A stretch of DNA of 38,181 bases, taken from positions 1-38,181 of the forward strand of contig JAOABX010000017.1 in NCBI GenBank assembly GCA_026418175.1. The letters run 5' to 3'. The stretch is from Flavobacteriales bacterium (GTDB lineage Bacteria; Bacteroidota; Bacteroidia; CAIKAF01). The position numbers and the translations under genes are program-made. The notes under the pieces were generated by a model, which was given only the letters and a program-made list of their open reading frames with translations, was not told where the DNA came from and ran no database searches. Below, piece by piece: positions 1,681 to 21,967 of the stretch (positions within the stretch are counted from its first letter, which is position 1; every line of letters starts with the position of its first letter).

Positions 1681-4600
1681 ATGCTGAAAACTTTCATAGA
1701 ACGCCCGATTTTATCGTTGGTAATATCTTTGTTAATTGTTTTGTTGGGCTTGCTAGCTTTAATTGGCTTGCCCATTACACAGTTTCCTGAAATTGTTCCC
1801 CCATCAGTAACAATTACTACCAAATATACAGGTGCAAATGCTGAGGTTTGTGCCAAGTCAGTTGCTACCACCATTGAACGTGCTGTAAATGGGGTGCCTG
1901 GTATGACTTATCTTTCATCCGTTTCAAATAATACAGGAACTACCATTATTACGGTTTTTTTCAAAGTAGGTACTGATCCGGATTTAGCTTCTGTTAATGT
2001 TCAAAATCGGGTAGCAACTGTGCTGGATGAAATGCCGGAAGAAGTACTTAAAGCCGGTGTTCAAACAGAGAAAGAGGTAAACAGTATGCTGATGTATCTA
2101 AATTTATTCAGCGAGGATTCAACCGTGGATGAAAAGTTTGTTTACAACTTTGCTGATATAAATATTTTACCTGAATTAAAAAGAATTGATGGAGTAGGAT
2201 ATGCTGAAATCATGGGGTCGAAAGATTATTCCATGCGAGTATGGCTAAAACCTGAAAAGCTTTCCGCGTATCAGCTTAGCACTGATGATGTGATTCGAGC
2301 AATTCGTGACCAGAATTTAGAGGCTGCACCCGGCAAAACCGGTGAAAGCTCTGACAAAATGAATCAATCAACACAATACGTGTTACGTTATACAGGAAAG
2401 TTTATTGACCAGGAGCAATATCGTAATATAATAATAAAAGCCAATCCCGATGGTTCATTTTTAAAGCTAAAAGATATTGCTGATGTAGAATTTGGTGCTT
2501 TAAGCTATCATATGGATTCAAAAACAGACGGACGCCCGTCTGCATCTATTATGATTAAACAGCGACCAGGTTCTAATGCGCGGGAAGTAATTCAAAACAT
2601 CAAAAAAAGAATGTCATACCTGGAAAAAACTACATTTCCTCCAGGAATGAAGTTTAACATTGCCTATGATGTTTCACGCTTTCTTGATGCTTCGATTGCT
2701 GAAGTTATTAAAACCTTAATTGAAGCTTTTATTCTTGTGTTTTTAGTTGTATTTATTTTCTTACAAGATATTCGTGCTACAATAATATCTGCTTTATCCA
2801 TTCCGGTGGCATTGATAGGTACCTTTGCATTTATGCAATTGATGGATTTTTCCATTAACCTGCTCACATTATTTGCCTTGGTACTGGCTATCGGAATTGT
2901 TGTAGATAATGCGATTGTAGTAGTGGAAGCCATTCACGCTAAAATGCATGAAAAACACCTGGGAGCAAAAGAAGCTACATTGGAATCTATGAGTGAGATT
3001 GCTTCTGCCATTGTGGCTATTACGTTAGTAATGTCTGCAGTGTTTGTTCCAGTAGCATTTCTATCCGGTCCGGTTGGAATTTTTTATCGTCAGTTTTCTT
3101 TAACCTTGGCTATAGCCATTGTTATTTCAGGTATTAATGCATTAACTCTTACGCCGGCACTTTGTGCATTATGGCTTAAACCACCCGGACATGAAGTTTC
3201 ATTCGGTGCACTTAACAGATTCTTTCAATCATTTAACAAAGGGTATGAAAAGCTTACATCACGTTACAAATCGGTTATTGAGCGATTTAGCCCCAAAAAA
3301 CGATATACTTTGTTAATGCTTTTAGTGGCTTTATTAGGAGTATTTGGTCTAAATAAAATTTTATCCAAAGGATTTATTCCCACGGAAGATCAAGGAATTA
3401 TTTATATTTCAGTAAACACTCCGCCAGGTGCTACACTGGAAAGAACCGGACGTGTGCTAGATGAAATTACTGAATTAGCGAGCCAGTTTCAAGAAGTTGA
3501 AAACGTAACAACCCTTGCCGGCTACAGTATCATTACAGAATCTGCGGGGGCATCGTATGGTATGGGAATTATTAACTTAAAACCTTGGGATAAACGCAAT
3601 AAAAAAGTAAACAAATTAATTGAAGAGCTTTATGAAAAATGTGTACATATAAAAGATGCATCCATTGAATTTTTTCCGCCACCTACTGTTCCTGGATTTG
3701 GTAATACCAGTGGATTTGAATTGCGGTTAATAGATAAAACAGGAAGTGGTAATCTTAAAAATTTGTATGATGTAGGAAACGAATTTATCAATAATATTGT
3801 TGCTACTCCTCAGGTTGAAAATGCGTTTACTAATTTTAATCCTAATTTCCCTCAATACCTGATTAAGGTAGATTATGAAATGGCTGCCAAGAAAAACATT
3901 AGTGTGGATGAAGCTATGAATACTCTTCAAACGCTTGTTGGTAGTTATTATGCCAGTAATTTTGTTCGTTTTGGGCAAATGTATAAAGTGATGTTACAAG
4001 CGGCTCCTCAATACAGAACAGCTCCTGATGATATATTAAAATATTACATGAAAAACCGCGATGGAGAGATGGTTCCATTTTCAACATTTATCCGCATGGA
4101 AAAAGTATATGGGCCAGAACAAATTACCCGTTATAACATGTTTAATGCCATTATGATTAACGGAGATGCAGCTCCCGGATATTCTAGTGGTGATGCAATT
4201 AAAGCCGTTGAACGTGCTGCATTGAAATTACCAAGAGGTTATACATACGAATGGTCGGGAATGACCAGAGAAGAAGTAATTTCAGGAAATCAAACAACTA
4301 TCATATTTATTATTTGCTTGATATTTGTCTATTTAATATTAGCTGCACAATATGAAAGTTTCATGCTTCCGCTTTCTGTAATTCTATCATTGCCCGTTGG
4401 TATCTTCGGTTCTTACCTTTCTTTGAAATTAATGGGATTACAAAATAATATCTATGCACAGGTAGCATTGATTATGCTTATTGGACTGCTTGGTAAAAAT
4501 GCCATTCTTATAGTAGAGTACGTATTGCTAAAGCGGAAAGAAGGTAAAGATATGCTGCAAGCTACCATCGAAGGGTCAGTAGCTCGTTTCAGACCTATTC

Positions 4601-13595: not shown

Positions 13596-14183
13596 TTAAT
13601 TATCCCTAAACCGATAGTTGACACCAATCGATAAGCTTACTAAATCTGGAAAACCTGGCACAAAACTTATCGATAAATCCCAGGCTCGGTAAAAGTTAAA
13701 TCGGTATTCAAACTCTCCTCCATACCATAAAAATTTATATTGAATAAAATCATCTTTATCACCAATAAAACGATTTCTATTAATATAACCATCAAGGGTA
13801 TGCCAATTTCTTCGAAAGATAAAGGTGGGGCCAATTCCACCATATAAAGCATGCTTCTTTATTTTAAATATTTTTGCTCGAATACCAGCATGTAAAAAAC
13901 CTCCCCATTGAGCTGCGCAATCAGCATATTGGGCAATACCAAATTTAAATGACAGTGCATCTTCTACCACAAATTTTTCGTAAGATAACACCACACCTAA
14001 ATTCATTACCAAATATCCTTGGGGATCTAATTTATGAGGCATAAGGTGTGCATTATCTTTTTCTCCTAATGGATGAATGCTAAGCCCAAAAAATTTTATT
14101 CCAAAATTATCTTGGGCCCAGGAGTGAGAATGATGTAAAGCGATTAGAAACCCTAATAATAAATATCTACATCTATTTGACAT
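13596..14183 (-). CDS. Predicted small outer-membrane beta-barrel protein, unknown function
   Basis: 195 residues. A signal peptide (about 1-24, ending 'HSWAQ') is followed by amphipathic strands rich in aromatic residues, for example 'YLVMNLGVVLSYEKFVV', 'GGFLHAGIRAKIFKI', 'HALYGGIGPTFIFRRN' and 'WYGGEFEYRFNFY'. The last strand, 'LVSLSIGVNYRF', ends two residues before the C-terminus, as in barrel proteins recognised by BamA. I do not recognise a named family. An 8- to 10-stranded barrel would fit the length. It stands alone, with a possible -7 box 134 nt upstream. Confidence 0.7.
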   Translation of the reverse strand: MSNRCRYLLLGFLIALHHSHSWAQDNFGIKFFGLSIHPLGEKDNAHLMPHKLDPQGYLVMNLGVVLSYEKFVVEDALSFKFGIAQYADCAAQWGGFLHAGIRAKIFKIKKHALYGGIGPTFIFRRNWHTLDGYINRNRFIGDKDDFIQYKFLWYGGEFEYRFNFYRAWDLSISFVPGFPDLVSLSIGVNYRFRDN

Positions 14184-14828
14184 TTAAATTGAATTAATTT
14201 TAAAATAAAAGGTATATAATTAAAATTGAATTTCAAGAATTCATCGGGTTTCAGTGATAAAAATAATAATATTATTTATTTTAAGTATAACAGTTAAAAT
14301 TGGTTTTTTGTACTTCCAAATGTAGAAAGTAAATGATTTGATTGGACGGCATAATTATTTTAAACGACAAGAATTCTGTTAATTATTCTTTTTGAATTGT
14401 ACATTATATAGTTTAGTGAATATCATTAATAATATCAACTTCGTTGTAATATGATAAAATTTTCCACTGTGTATAAAAAACAAAGTTGGTCAAGAAGATT
14501 TTAGCTAAAGAGTGTTATATAGTTTTTAAAAAGTATAACTACTTCTTACAGTGGGTTCATTATTATAAAAATTGAAATGGAAATTTAATAACTTGTATTT
14601 TACTTCATTATCATCATTGAACTGAATTTAAAATCATATGGATGATATTCTACATCGGTGGAATTGAAAATTTTTATTAAAATACCTTGAAGGTTTATAC
14701 TAAATATTAATGCAGTAACAATGGAACTAATAAGTGTAAATAATGTGATGAGAAATAAATAAAATGAAAGGTAAATGGGCTTGAGGGATGTAAAATAAAT
14801 AAGAACGTTAAGAATATTTTAATATATG
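14184..14828. other. AT-rich gene-free stretch of about 645 nt
   Basis: No reading frame that looks like a gene in any frame: stops are dense and the longest ATG-started frames I followed are under 20 codons. No tRNA-like fold, tandem repeat, IS end or convincing hairpin was seen. The only element noted is a minus-strand TACATTTG box at 14317-14324. It could be decayed coding DNA or hold an unrecognised RNA. Confidence 0.5.
14317..14324 (-). promoter_or_regulatory. Possible -7 box for the beta-barrel gene
   Basis: TACATTTG on the minus strand matches TAnnTTTG but lies 133 nt before the ATG and has no TTG at -33. It would give a long AT-rich leader; chance occurrence is quite possible. Confidence 0.25.
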
Positions 14829-14902
14829 CGGTCTGGACGGGACTCGAACCCGCGACCCCGTGCGTGACAGGCACGTATTCTAACCAGCTGAACTACCAGA
14901 CC
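14829..14902 (-). tRNA. tRNA-Asp (anticodon GTC)
   Basis: The minus strand folds as a cloverleaf of 74 nt: acceptor GGTCTGG pairs with CCAGACC, discriminator G at 14829, anticodon stem CGTGC/GCACG around the loop CTGTCAC (anticodon GTC), and T-arm GGGTTCGAGTCCC. The 3' CCA is not encoded and must be added. The gene stands alone. Confidence 0.97.
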
Positions 14903-15128: not shown

Positions 15129-15434
15129 ATGTCTAGCATTTTTGAGCAAATACTTCGGTTTGGATTAACCATGAGTCTCATGGATAGGGAATTGTTTGTT
15201 AGTAAGGTATCTGAATTTTTGGAACAGTATCGCAATGACCCAGAAATGATGGAAAAAATATCTCAGCGGCTTTACCAGTATTTGGAAGAAGTAAAGCAAC
15301 GAATGGAAATGAAAGACCTAATTAGTTCAGCGTTAGAAAGCAGAAATTTACCCACCAATGAAGATGTAAGGGCCTTGACGAAAGCTATTGAAAAATTAAC
15401 TCAAGAATTACAAAAAAATAGACCAACTGAATGA
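15129..15434 (+). CDS. Small coiled-coil protein, phasin/UbiK-like, coupled to the UbiB-type kinase
   Basis: 101 residues, highly charged, without signal peptide or membrane span. The first third is an amphipathic helix ('FEQILRFGLTMSLMDRELFV'), the middle is acidic helix, and residues ~78-97 ('NEDVRALTKAIEKLTQELQK') form a heptad-like coiled coil. The 'LPTNEDVRALTKAIEKL' pattern resembles the C-termini of phasin-like (PhaI/PhaF) proteins, and the overall plan recalls UbiK, a trimeric coiled-coil accessory factor of ubiquinone synthesis. Its stop overlaps the start of the kinase gene (ATGA), so the two are translationally coupled. Inference: an accessory or localisation partner of that kinase. 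No homology could be tested. Confidence 0.72.
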   Translation: MSSIFEQILRFGLTMSLMDRELFVSKVSEFLEQYRNDPEMMEKISQRLYQYLEEVKQRMEMKDLISSALESRNLPTNEDVRALTKAIEKLTQELQKNRPTE

Positions 15435-17086
15435 TATTTAGAATTTGGGAATATCGATTGTATTATTTACAGATACTTCGTGCTCTTCAGATTATTAACA
15501 TCCTGATTAAAAACGGGATAATTGAATGGATGGGGGGGAACAAATATTTACGCCGACTGGTTCCCCAAAAATATTTTAATAATGGGGTGATGCGTTCCAC
15601 ACCTGAACGCATACGAATTATCCTAGAAGATTTAGGGCCTACGTTTGTTAAATTCGGTCAAATTCTTGCTGACCGGCCGGATTTGATTAATGAGCCTTTG
15701 CGTATAGAGTTTAAAAAATTGCAAAGCAAGGCACAACCCATGAGCGATGAAATGGCAATTGCGCTAATTGAAAAAGAATTGCGGGCTCCTATTGCTGATG
15801 TTTTTGAAAGTTTTGACAGGAATTGCTTTGGCTCTGCTTCCATTGGTCAGGTATATAAAGGAGTTTTAAAAGATGGCCGGGAAGTTATTGTAAAAATTCA
15901 GCGTCCGAATATTGAGACAAAGATTAAATCAGATTTATATCTGATGCGTTTTTTGGCTAAAAAACTTGTACAAGCTTATCCGGGCTTGGCTTCTATTGAT
16001 ATTGAAGGCTTTGTGGAAGAGTTTGGGAATATCATCATGTCAGAACTTGATTACTTTGAAGAAGCTTCCAATGCTCAGCGTTTTTATGATATGTTTAAAG
16101 ACTTTCCGCAATGTAGAATTCCGAAAGTATATATGGAATTATCTACTAAAAAATTGCTGGTCATGGAATATATGAGCGGAATTGAGCCTGATAAAATTGA
16201 GGAATTGAAAGCTGCGGGGCTTGATCCGAAAATTATTGCCAATACCGGAACACATATTGTATTAAAAATGATTTTGAAACATGGTTTTTTTCATGGTGAT
16301 CCTCATGCCGGAAATATTTTTATACAGCCGGGTAATGTAATTGCTTTGGTTGATTTTGGAATGGTAGGAATACTTAAACCCCGAGAAATGAACTTTCTAG
16401 CTAGTTTTACATTGGGTTTTGCAACTATGAATGCACGCATGATTACAGATTCTTTAATTACGCTTTGCGGTAAAAAGTATTATTCCATGCATGAAGAACT
16501 TCAATTTAGCATTCAGGATTTATTAAATAAATATGAGCCTATTCCTTATGAAAAAATGGATTTTACAAAAATTCTAAATGAATGTGTGCAAATCATCATT
16601 CGTCATCAACTTAAAATACCATCCAGTATTTATTTATTGCTTAAATCGCTTGCTACGATTGAAAAATTTGGTAGCCGCCTTGACCCTGATATATCACTGA
16701 GTGTAATTATAAAACCCTATGCTGAAGAATTGATTAAACAAAAGTATTCAGTAAAAATGATAGCCAATGAACTGTTTGATACAGTTCGTGATTATGCAGC
16801 ATTTATTCGTGATTTTCCCGGGGAAGTGAATGAAATTTTATATAAGATTAAAGAAGGCAAGCTTATTCATGAAATAAACTTACAAGATAAAGCAGCATTT
16901 GCACGTGCTGCCAAAGAATTCAGCCAACGGCTGGCACTGGTTATGATTATTGGTTTTATGGTAGTTAGTGCAACTATTTTGATTGTATTTGATCCTGATT
17001 CTAGTTCTGGTAAAATGTTATTTATAATCTCTGGCATTTTTGCCACGTGGACACTTATTCGTTTAATGTTAAGGACAAGAATTTAG
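15431..17086 (+). CDS. UbiB/ABC1/AarF-family atypical kinase
   Basis: 551 residues. It has the hallmark motifs of the atypical ABC1/ADCK/UbiB kinase family: KxGQ as 'VKFGQ' (K74-Q77), an alanine-rich loop 'GSASIGQVY' in place of the usual glycine loop, catalytic 'HGDPHAGN' (H288-N295) and metal-binding 'VDFG' (D308-G310). Two C-terminal membrane helices follow ('LALVMIIGFMVVSATILIVF' and 'MLFIISGIFATWTLIRLML'), as in UbiB. The family supports isoprenoid-quinone synthesis or lipid trafficking through ATPase activity. Bacteroidota generally make menaquinone, so the substrate here is unclear. The start ATG overlaps the stop of the small coiled-coil gene. Confidence 0.92.
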   Translation: MIFRIWEYRLYYLQILRALQIINILIKNGIIEWMGGNKYLRRLVPQKYFNNGVMRSTPERIRIILEDLGPTFVKFGQILADRPDLINEPLRIEFKKLQSKAQPMSDEMAIALIEKELRAPIADVFESFDRNCFGSASIGQVYKGVLKDGREVIVKIQRPNIETKIKSDLYLMRFLAKKLVQAYPGLASIDIEGFVEEFGNIIMSELDYFEEASNAQRFYDMFKDFPQCRIPKVYMELSTKKLLVMEYMSGIEPDKIEELKAAGLDPKIIANTGTHIVLKMILKHGFFHGDPHAGNIFIQPGNVIALVDFGMVGILKPREMNFLASFTLGFATMNARMITDSLITLCGKKYYSMHEELQFSIQDLLNKYEPIPYEKMDFTKILNECVQIIIRHQLKIPSSIYLLLKSLATIEKFGSRLDPDISLSVIIKPYAEELIKQKYSVKMIANELFDTVRDYAAFIRDFPGEVNEILYKIKEGKLIHEINLQDKAAFARAAKEFSQRLALVMIIGFMVVSATILIVFDPDSSSGKMLFIISGIFATWTLIRLMLRTRI

Positions 17087-20393: not shown

Positions 20394-20924
20394 ATGGATG
20401 TGCTATTTGCTTTTTTGGAGATTTTAAAATATATCTTGCCATCGATAGTAGTTTTTTTAACTGCCTATTACTTAATTAAACAATTAATGAAATCTCAGGA
20501 GCGGCGAATGCTGCTTGAATTGCGTAAAAAAAGCACTGATAACTTGAATCCCATACGCTTACAGGCTTATGAACGCGCCGTTCTATTTTTAGAACGTATT
20601 ACTCCCAACAGTTTGGTGATGCGTATTTTTAATAATCGAATGAGTGCCAGGGATCTTCATACCGAACTTCTTTCTACCATTCGTAATGAATACGAGCATA
20701 ACATTACTCAACAGATATACATGAGCCAAGGTGCATGGGAAGCCTTAAAGCGAGCTAAAGAAGAAACTATAAAAATGGTTAACATAGCAGCCAGTAAAGT
20801 TGATGACTCAGCGCCAGGTATTGAACTCAGCAAGGTATTATTGGATATGTGCATGCAACTGGATAAACTTCCAACACAAATGGCTATTGATATCATCAAA
20901 GAAGAAGTAAAGTCGTTTTTTTAA
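20394..20924 (+). CDS. Membrane-anchored cytosolic protein of unknown function (DUF7935-like)
   Basis: 176 residues. One N-terminal membrane helix (about 10-30, 'ILKYILPSIVVFLTAYYLI') is followed by a soluble helical domain. Conserved-looking stretches are 'NPIRLQAYERAVLFLERITP', 'LHTELLSTIRNEYEHNITQQIY' and 'LDKLPTQMAIDIIKEEVKSFF'. I believe this is a family found widely in Bacteroidota (possibly DUF7935), but I cannot verify that. No catalytic motif is visible. Its stop is 2 nt before the start of the di-heme peroxidase gene, so they form an operon; a functional link is inference only. Confidence 0.75.
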   Translation: MDVLFAFLEILKYILPSIVVFLTAYYLIKQLMKSQERRMLLELRKKSTDNLNPIRLQAYERAVLFLERITPNSLVMRIFNNRMSARDLHTELLSTIRNEYEHNITQQIYMSQGAWEALKRAKEETIKMVNIAASKVDDSAPGIELSKVLLDMCMQLDKLPTQMAIDIIKEEVKSFF

Positions 20925-20926
20925 GC

Positions 20927-21967
20927 ATGAAACGTCAGTTATTTTATTTCACATTTTTGGCATTGCTAAATAATTCGTGCAGCAGGGATGAATCTCAAGC
21001 TACACCTTATCCGCTTCAAATTCCGCAAGGGTTACCCTCCATGGTTATTCCGGCAGACAATCCGCTCACGGTGGAAGGAGTTGAATTGGGAAGAAAATTA
21101 TTTTACGATCCAATACTATCAAAAAACAACATTCAGTCGTGTGCCTCTTGCCATTTGCAATCGCTGGGGTTTACTGACCATGGTTTACGGTACAGTGTTG
21201 GTGTTGATGGTATTGAAGGAACCAGAAATTCGATGCCATTAATCAACTTAGGCTGGTCACCAAGATTTTTTTGGGATGGAAGGGCATTAACCTTAGAGCA
21301 ACAAATATTTCAGCCGGTTACAAATCCGATAGAAATGAATACCACTTGGCCGGAGGTTGAAGGTAAATTGAATACACATGCTGAATATCCCAATTTATTT
21401 TACAAAGCGTTTGGTATAGAACGTATTGATTCTGTACATGTAGTAAAAGCTATTGCTCAGTTCATACGTACCATGATTTCAGGCAATTCAAAGTTTGATA
21501 AGTTTTTACGTCAACAGGCAGTTCTTACCCCTTCTGAAATGAATGGTTTGAATATTTATACTACTGAAAAAGGCGATTGTTTTCATTGTCATGGATTTGA
21601 TGGTTCAGGGCAGTTTACAGATTTTTCATTTCATAATAATGGTTTGGATACTGATGCTGAAATGACGGACTTAGGTTTAATGATTGTAACTGGTAATCCT
21701 GGCGATAAGGGAAAATTCAAAACTCCTACATTACGGAATATCGAAGTTACTGCTCCTTACATGCACGATGGAAGATTTGCTACCCTGGAAGAAGTCATTG
21801 AACATTATGATTCAGGGGGTAAACCTTCTTCTACTGTTGACCCGTTAATGAAGCATGTGGGTACGGGATTAAATTTAACTGCGCAGGAAAAGCAGGATTT
21901 AATTAATTTTTTAAAAACATTGACGGATGAGGAGTTTTTAACTGACCCAAGATTCAGTGCCCCATAA
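20927..21967 (+). CDS. Di-heme cytochrome c peroxidase (CcpA/MauG family), probable lipoprotein
   Basis: 346 residues. Two c-type heme motifs are present: 'CASCH' at C72-H76 and 'CFHCH' at C218-H222, plus the family motif 'APYMHDGRFATLEEVIEHYD'. Such enzymes reduce H2O2 with electrons from cytochrome c in the periplasm; MauG-like oxidation of other substrates is an alternative. The N-terminus is short and hydrophobic and ends in 'LLNNSC' (Cys18), a non-canonical lipobox, so it is probably a lipoprotein. The last 14 nt overlap the 3' end of the convergent phosphoesterase gene. Confidence 0.92.
   Translation: MKRQLFYFTFLALLNNSCSRDESQATPYPLQIPQGLPSMVIPADNPLTVEGVELGRKLFYDPILSKNNIQSCASCHLQSLGFTDHGLRYSVGVDGIEGTRNSMPLINLGWSPRFFWDGRALTLEQQIFQPVTNPIEMNTTWPEVEGKLNTHAEYPNLFYKAFGIERIDSVHVVKAIAQFIRTMISGNSKFDKFLRQQAVLTPSEMNGLNIYTTEKGDCFHCHGFDGSGQFTDFSFHNNGLDTDAEMTDLGLMIVTGNPGDKGKFKTPTLRNIEVTAPYMHDGRFATLEEVIEHYDSGGKPSSTVDPLMKHVGTGLNLTAQEKQDLINFLKTLTDEEFLTDPRFSAP

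Follow-up and report, generated by a model that had tools for sequence, protein, structure and literature searches.

In E. coli, ubiJ (1625-2230) of the ubiE-ubiJ-ubiB arrangement lies directly upstream of ubiB (2227-3867), with a 4-nt overlap between both genes (locus L045). UbiJ has an SCP2 lipid-binding domain and a C-terminal coiled coil, and UbiK is encoded by a separate gene of the BMFP family elsewhere in the genome, the whole system serving ubiquinone and not menaquinone. UbiJ is described as binding UbiK via C-terminal coiled coils, and it is through UbiJ-UbiK2 that the Ubi metabolon is said to contact the membrane (PMC9499169). UbiK homologues are reported to be trimeric coiled coils with a membrane-fusing activity in vitro (PMC3107778). 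In yeast, the UbiB-family ATPase Coq8 is proposed to draw precursors of CoQ out of the membrane, and an influence on CoQ distribution is described for Cqd1 and Cqd2 (PMC8346625). A conserved, clade-specific small partner gives a direct handle on the role of UbiB-family ATPases in bacteria devoid of ubiquinone. Mycobacteria, with the UbiB-family proteins MSMEG_1954 and Rv3197, are among the organisms lacking ubiquinone.

Phasins are described as joining a helix that binds surfaces to a zipper through which they oligomerise (PMC3574117, PMC5658603). In P. putida PhaF, the helix is reported to be amphipathic and the oligomerising element to be a leucine zipper (PMC3574117). The window considered here, i.e., the whole stretch of 38,181 nt that was analysed, originates from a Flavobacteriales bacterium and carries a small gene overlapping a gene of the UbiB family. 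A UbiB with a small accessory protein is a known arrangement, and what appears to be new, judging from sequence, is an accessory from the phasin superfamily. No description of a phasin-UbiB/AarF pairing was found among the matches listed by a literature search whose scope excluded subscription papers and database annotation, and the search returned no paper joining a phasin with UbiK or YqiC.

The small gene and its UbiB neighbour

The features of the locus are as follows.

13596-14183, minus strand: 195-aa ORF without Pfam match at E ≤ 1e-4, upstream of the pair
14828-14902, minus strand: tRNA-Asp (GTC), in the long gap upstream of the pair
15129-15434, plus strand: phasin-superfamily small protein, type C partner of UbiB (ORF, ATG start, 101 aa)
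15366-15410, plus strand: codons of the C-terminal heptad V80-L83-I87-L90-L94 (alignment A1, column counts)
15431-15434, plus strand: ATGA stop/start overlap of both genes (sequence)
15431-17086, plus strand: UbiB/ABC1-family atypical kinase/ATPase (ORF, ATG start, 551 aa; PF03109)
15650-15661, plus strand: KxGQ motif (KFGQ, residues 74-77); K74 and Q77 invariant in 32/32 rows of alignment A4
16292-16315, plus strand: catalytic-loop motif HGDPHAGN (residues 288-295); D290 and N295 invariant in 32/32 rows of alignment A4
16352-16360, plus strand: DFG (residues 308-310); D308 and G310 invariant in 32/32 rows of alignment A4
16889-17071, plus strand: C-terminal helical hairpin (residues 487-547), with model helices 487-520 and 525-547

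Both ORFs lie where the initial annotation had placed a 101-residue gene in ATGA overlap with a UbiB-family gene. Its description of the pair as translationally fused has to be abandoned, as two separate proteins are encoded and the overlap is limited to a stop and a start codon. This overlap is exactly -4 throughout the genus (genomes G000, the present one, G001, G002 and G003), and the spacing in the other pairs of the same type ranges from a short overlap to a 6-nt gap. Compared with its closest relative in G001, the small ORF displays 41 differences over 303 nt, distributed as 9/2/30 over codon positions 1/2/3, with a dN of 0.043 and a dS of 0.905. Judged on these codon-position differences and rates, it is a genuine protein gene under purifying selection and not a chance frame. 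A difference of a single base close to codon 25 puts the ubiB gene of G001 out of frame (L008/L037, around position 1000), which represents either an assembly error or a broken gene.

About 140 nt upstream of the small gene, the sequence TATCTTTG at 14980-14987 matches TAnnTTTG, a promoter element of Bacteroidota, and is a candidate promoter. Downstream of the pair, a TrkH gene stands in convergent orientation. At 20394-21967, the window also includes a DUF7935 gene and, 2 nt further on, a gene for a di-haem cytochrome c peroxidase of the MauG family. At the nine other loci of the same type, little of the window beyond the pair is conserved outside G001: an ABC-transporter match of 29% in G321, three matches to an ORF at the edge of the window (about 22% or less), and an antisense frame inside ubiB. 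Since so little else recurs, the conserved unit, as far as gene content tells, is the pair and not a larger cluster.

The 551-aa protein matches PF03109 (ABC1) with an E-value of 1.5e-75 and 253.9 bits for a cut-off of 22.9, and reaches 363.1 bits against TIGR01982, the equivalog of ubiquinone UbiB, below its cut-off of 487.55. Its structural model (pLDDT 82.9) finds its best match in COQ8A (Z 27.9, rmsd 4.2, 364 residues aligned). Residues 74-77 (KFGQ) are those we take to be the KxGQ motif. Kyte-Doolittle 19-residue peaks of 2.87 from residue 501 and 1.92 from residue 529 coincide with the modelled C-terminal hairpin, which is likely to be a membrane anchor.

The small protein scores 30.5 bits against the Pfam phasin model PF05597, above the cut-off of 28.8, and the six-frame search of its own genome yields this gene, narrowly above cut-off, as the single match. 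It remains below the cut-off of NCBIfam PHA_granule_1 (TIGR01837; 24.3 bits for 94.7). BMFP (PF04380) is absent from its Pfam matches even at E up to 10, and the genome as a whole contains no BMFP match, the E. coli control being positive. Nor does the genome match PhaC_N (PF07167), for which the Caulobacter control is positive, class III synthases without PhaC_N being outside this search. By these models, the small protein is a member of the phasin superfamily and not of UbiK/BMFP. The initial annotation had called it phasin/UbiK-like: the first half of this name is retained, and the second does not apply to family membership, at the level of the protein or of the genome. As a functional analogy, "UbiK-like" holds for a small helical protein with a C-terminal heptad, and for 12/32 A/C partners (types defined below) it also covers a weak likeness in sequence.

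Heptad positions 80, 83, 87, 90 and 94 are hydrophobic in 10/10 aligned proteins of the type. N-terminal segments of the partners are mostly no more amphipathic than shuffled sequences (median p of 0.09, 0.34 and 0.26 for types A, B and C defined below), so membrane binding is deduced for the partner from its family alone. An AF2 model built from 32 sequences is poor (pLDDT 57). Searched against PDB sequences, the partner profile retrieved scattered coiled coils alone (best E 7e-4), which were dismissed as noise.

Conservation of the pairing in the class

Sixty relatives, the own genome included, were searched with the single sequence. The small protein is found in the own genome and in G001, G002, G003, G006 and G052, which are exactly the six genomes possessing a UbiB of at least 48% identity. 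The survey was extended to 395 genomes of the class, in which UbiB occurs at 93 places in 81 genomes. Five places, in G195, G247, G368, G148 and G070, were left out as truncated or broken, and the remaining 88 were examined for small upstream ORFs, from which three partner profiles, A, B and C (the type of the window), were built. Type A is present at 32 loci, type B at 15 and type C at 10, whereas 31 have no partner, including L096, scored with just 290 nt of upstream sequence. Matches to the profiles at E ≤ 0.01 were obtained for 74 of the 2585 ORFs of the examined loci, overlapping loci included, and all stand directly upstream of UbiB, the one exception being the extra copy of a tandem type-A pair in L022. 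Closely spaced pairs of phasin-like genes were seen in L022 (G039), L133 (G368) and G016:C20, with no adjoining UbiB seen in G368 and G016.

Because upstream ORFs served as seeds of the profiles, a fair test of linkage has to be genome-wide. In the six frames of the 395 genomes, profile C gives 10 matches at E ≤ 1e-34, each of them immediately followed by a type C UbiB, all ten UbiBs belonging to one clade. The next five (1.5e-7 to 5.2e-5; G178, G232 twice, G148 and G081) are upstream of UbiBs from another clade, and the sixteenth (G368, E 1.9e-4) is a phasin gene with a second one close by and no UbiB within the 2.7 kb examined. Five weaker matches (E 2.6e-4 to 8.6e-4) fall within long ORFs and were attributed to coiled-coil noise. 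With profile B, 15/15 matches at E ≤ 1e-8 are upstream of type B UbiBs. In a sample of 395 genomes from the phylum, the sole match beyond the gene itself is placed 58 nt upstream of a UbiB. The initial annotation had made its proposal depend on the small gene accompanying most UbiB homologues of relatives: the type C pairing is kept at 10 of the 13 UbiBs of its clade, and a related partner is present at 57 of all 88 loci, so the refutation it had set does not materialise. For the three other type C UbiBs (G287, G390 and G317), profile C finds no partner anywhere in the genome, so the partner is dispensable or replaced there. In G071, the type C ubiB (L046/L114) is interrupted by one in-frame TAG, its partner gene being intact.

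In the 60 relatives, the genes nonetheless co-occur. Of the 23 genomes whose UbiB is long (E ≤ 1e-60 in the UbiB search), 17 carry a partner gene of type A or C, versus 1 of the 37 that lack a long UbiB (Fisher p of 4e-9 by genome, 1.7e-6 by genus and 1e-4 by family). Among the six long-UbiB genomes devoid of such a gene, four carry type B, leaving G036 and G054. The 27 type A or C phasin genes of these relatives comprise 15 adjoining UbiB, 11 elsewhere and 1 at a contig end (G001). The 11 distant genes, like the three partnerless type C UbiBs, speak against a strictly obligate association.

In the UbiB tree, type B loci are set apart from all other rows by a branch with full support (15/15 rows), type C loci belong to a 13-member clade with three partnerless members, and type A is spread over several clades. 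This tree was quickly built and has long branches, and no conclusion is drawn from how clades B, C and E. coli UbiB connect. Within these bounds, the partner type follows the UbiB clade. Indeed, G000, G002, G003, G006 and G071 each have one C pair and one A pair, each partner being with its own UbiB clade. Profile-profile comparison connects A with B (1.2e-7) and A with C (5e-8), the B-C comparison being unconvincing (E 0.007). Partner and UbiB distances correlate within types A, B and C (r of 0.81, 0.81 and 0.96, respectively), with 0/2000 permutations as high, which indicates that partner and UbiB descended together and were not reassorted, and does not imply contact.

Short UbiB paralogues of about 440 aa show another association. 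At 6/7 of loci L030-L036, L034 being the exception, an overlapping upstream gene (-4 nt) codes for a TetR-like protein. In the own genome, the short UbiB (L039, G000:C25) has an overlap of -10, and the upstream protein matches TetR_C_23, Pfam being run on this protein only. The third UbiB, a short paralogue, is associated with a different kind of partner. Among 256 plasmid records with a UbiB match, four neighbourhoods were examined and contain no A, B or C partner by profile, and a type A partner used as query has no match among plasmids. No natural partner-UbiB fusion was found, as no UbiB open frame exceeded 622 aa in the class search.

Proposed role and alternative readings

The menaquinone background assumed by the initial annotation fits with a menA gene in the own genome. 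The pair is probably a two-part machine for hydrophobic membrane molecules such as vitamin-K-like quinones. We put at about one in two the probability that its cargo is menaquinone, a precursor or some other isoprenoid lipid and that the partner acts as membrane-surface subunit. The substrate, whichever of the three it may be, is proposed from the family alone. The two-gene operon would associate a membrane-anchored ATPase of COQ8/UbiB type, ended by a C-terminal hairpin, with a dedicated helical partner of the phasin superfamily. The latter would oligomerise through its C-terminal heptad, lay its N-terminal helices on a membrane or lipid surface and dock on UbiB. UbiB may then spend ATP to lift hydrophobic isoprenoids, most likely menaquinone or a precursor, from the bilayer, with the partner keeping hold of either the lipid or the membrane surface. 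The pair would thereby fill the role played beside UbiB by UbiJ-UbiK in E. coli, with unrelated or distantly related parts. Apart from the genomic linkage, this reading is favoured by the COQ8A-like fold, by menA, by the action proposed for Coq8, by the membrane role of UbiJ-UbiK2 and by the menaquinone loss reported in Salmonella without the UbiK homologue YqiC (PMC5056187). The unlinked or missing partners, the weak N-terminal amphipathicity and the poor AF2 model of the partner weigh against it.

Both genes could also be operon neighbours only, co-expressed because both products act on membranes, and never come into physical contact. This is rather unlikely, even if a type-A phasin lies elsewhere in seven relatives (G004, G005, G008, G009, G018, G024 and G056) whose long UbiB of the type-A clade has no adjacent partner. 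Against it, every strong match to types B and C in the 395 genomes stands next to UbiB, and the distances of partner and UbiB correlate (r 0.81-0.96), although common descent alone suffices for the latter.

Slightly less probable again is a regulatory pair, in which the small protein, instead of working at a lipid surface, is an inhibitor, an activator or a phosphorylation substrate of UbiB and translational coupling sets the stoichiometry. Overlapping genes and clade-specific partner types fit any obligate partner, and partner sequences evolve faster than those of UbiB (mean distances of 0.59 versus 0.44 in type C), as is often the case for regulators, whereas the phasin-family sequence suggests action at the surface of a lipid or polymer and not in signalling.

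A divergent UbiK orthologue serving menaquinone synthesis is improbable. The loss of the UbiK homologue YqiC in Salmonella is described as removing menaquinone (PMC5056187), and BMFP at E ≤ 0.1 matches 12/32 A/C partners, weakly (best E 2.6e-6), as well as 2/11 B partners, the NCBIfam UbiK model matching 5/32. The phasin model at the same threshold matches 22/32 A/C partners and 11/11 B partners. The window protein has no BMFP match, nor has its genome, and E. coli UbiK matches BMFP and does not match PF05597. Because coiled coils cross-match readily, as in the PDB search, the weak BMFP matches are, at the level of sequence models, a lead and not membership. A true PHA-granule phasin sitting in the operon by chance is the least credible reading, since the PF05597 score above cut-off is opposed by a TIGR01837 score far from its threshold (24.3 vs 94.7) and by a genome without PhaC_N, class III synthases being outside that search.

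Returning to the lipid-moving pair, a broader proposal is offered tentatively, at somewhat less than even odds: in menaquinone-using Bacteroidia, phasin-superfamily proteins may have turned into obligate, clade-matched subunits of several UbiB/COQ8-type ATPases, in a general machine that mobilises lipids in place of UbiJ-UbiK, and phasins and UbiK/BMFP may belong to a single family of coiled-coil proteins of lipid surfaces. The pairing suggests that coiled-coil accessories beside UbiB are a general design and not a peculiarity of the proteobacterial ubiquinone complex.

Comparison with known systems

The window pair reproduces the E. coli layout, with a gene directly upstream of ubiB overlapping it by 4 nt, and the small protein can be likened to UbiJ by the putative C-terminal coiled coil encoded at this place, whereas it is devoid of the SCP2 domain. 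With PhaF-type phasins (PF05597), it shares the family score, helicity and a short zipper-like heptad. It differs from them by its size of 101 aa, the lack of a long C-terminal tail, a genome without PhaC_N and a fixed genomic link of its gene to UbiB. The UbiB of the window shares its fold, KxGQ, catalytic loop and DFG with COQ8A/ADCK3 and with yeast Coq8, Cqd1 and Cqd2, from which it differs in being bacterial, in having a C-terminal hairpin as likely anchor and in being accompanied by a partner gene of phasin type. The mycobacterial MSMEG_1954 and Rv3197 have a UbiB-family fold like that of the window UbiB (Z 21-24), with 22-26% identity.
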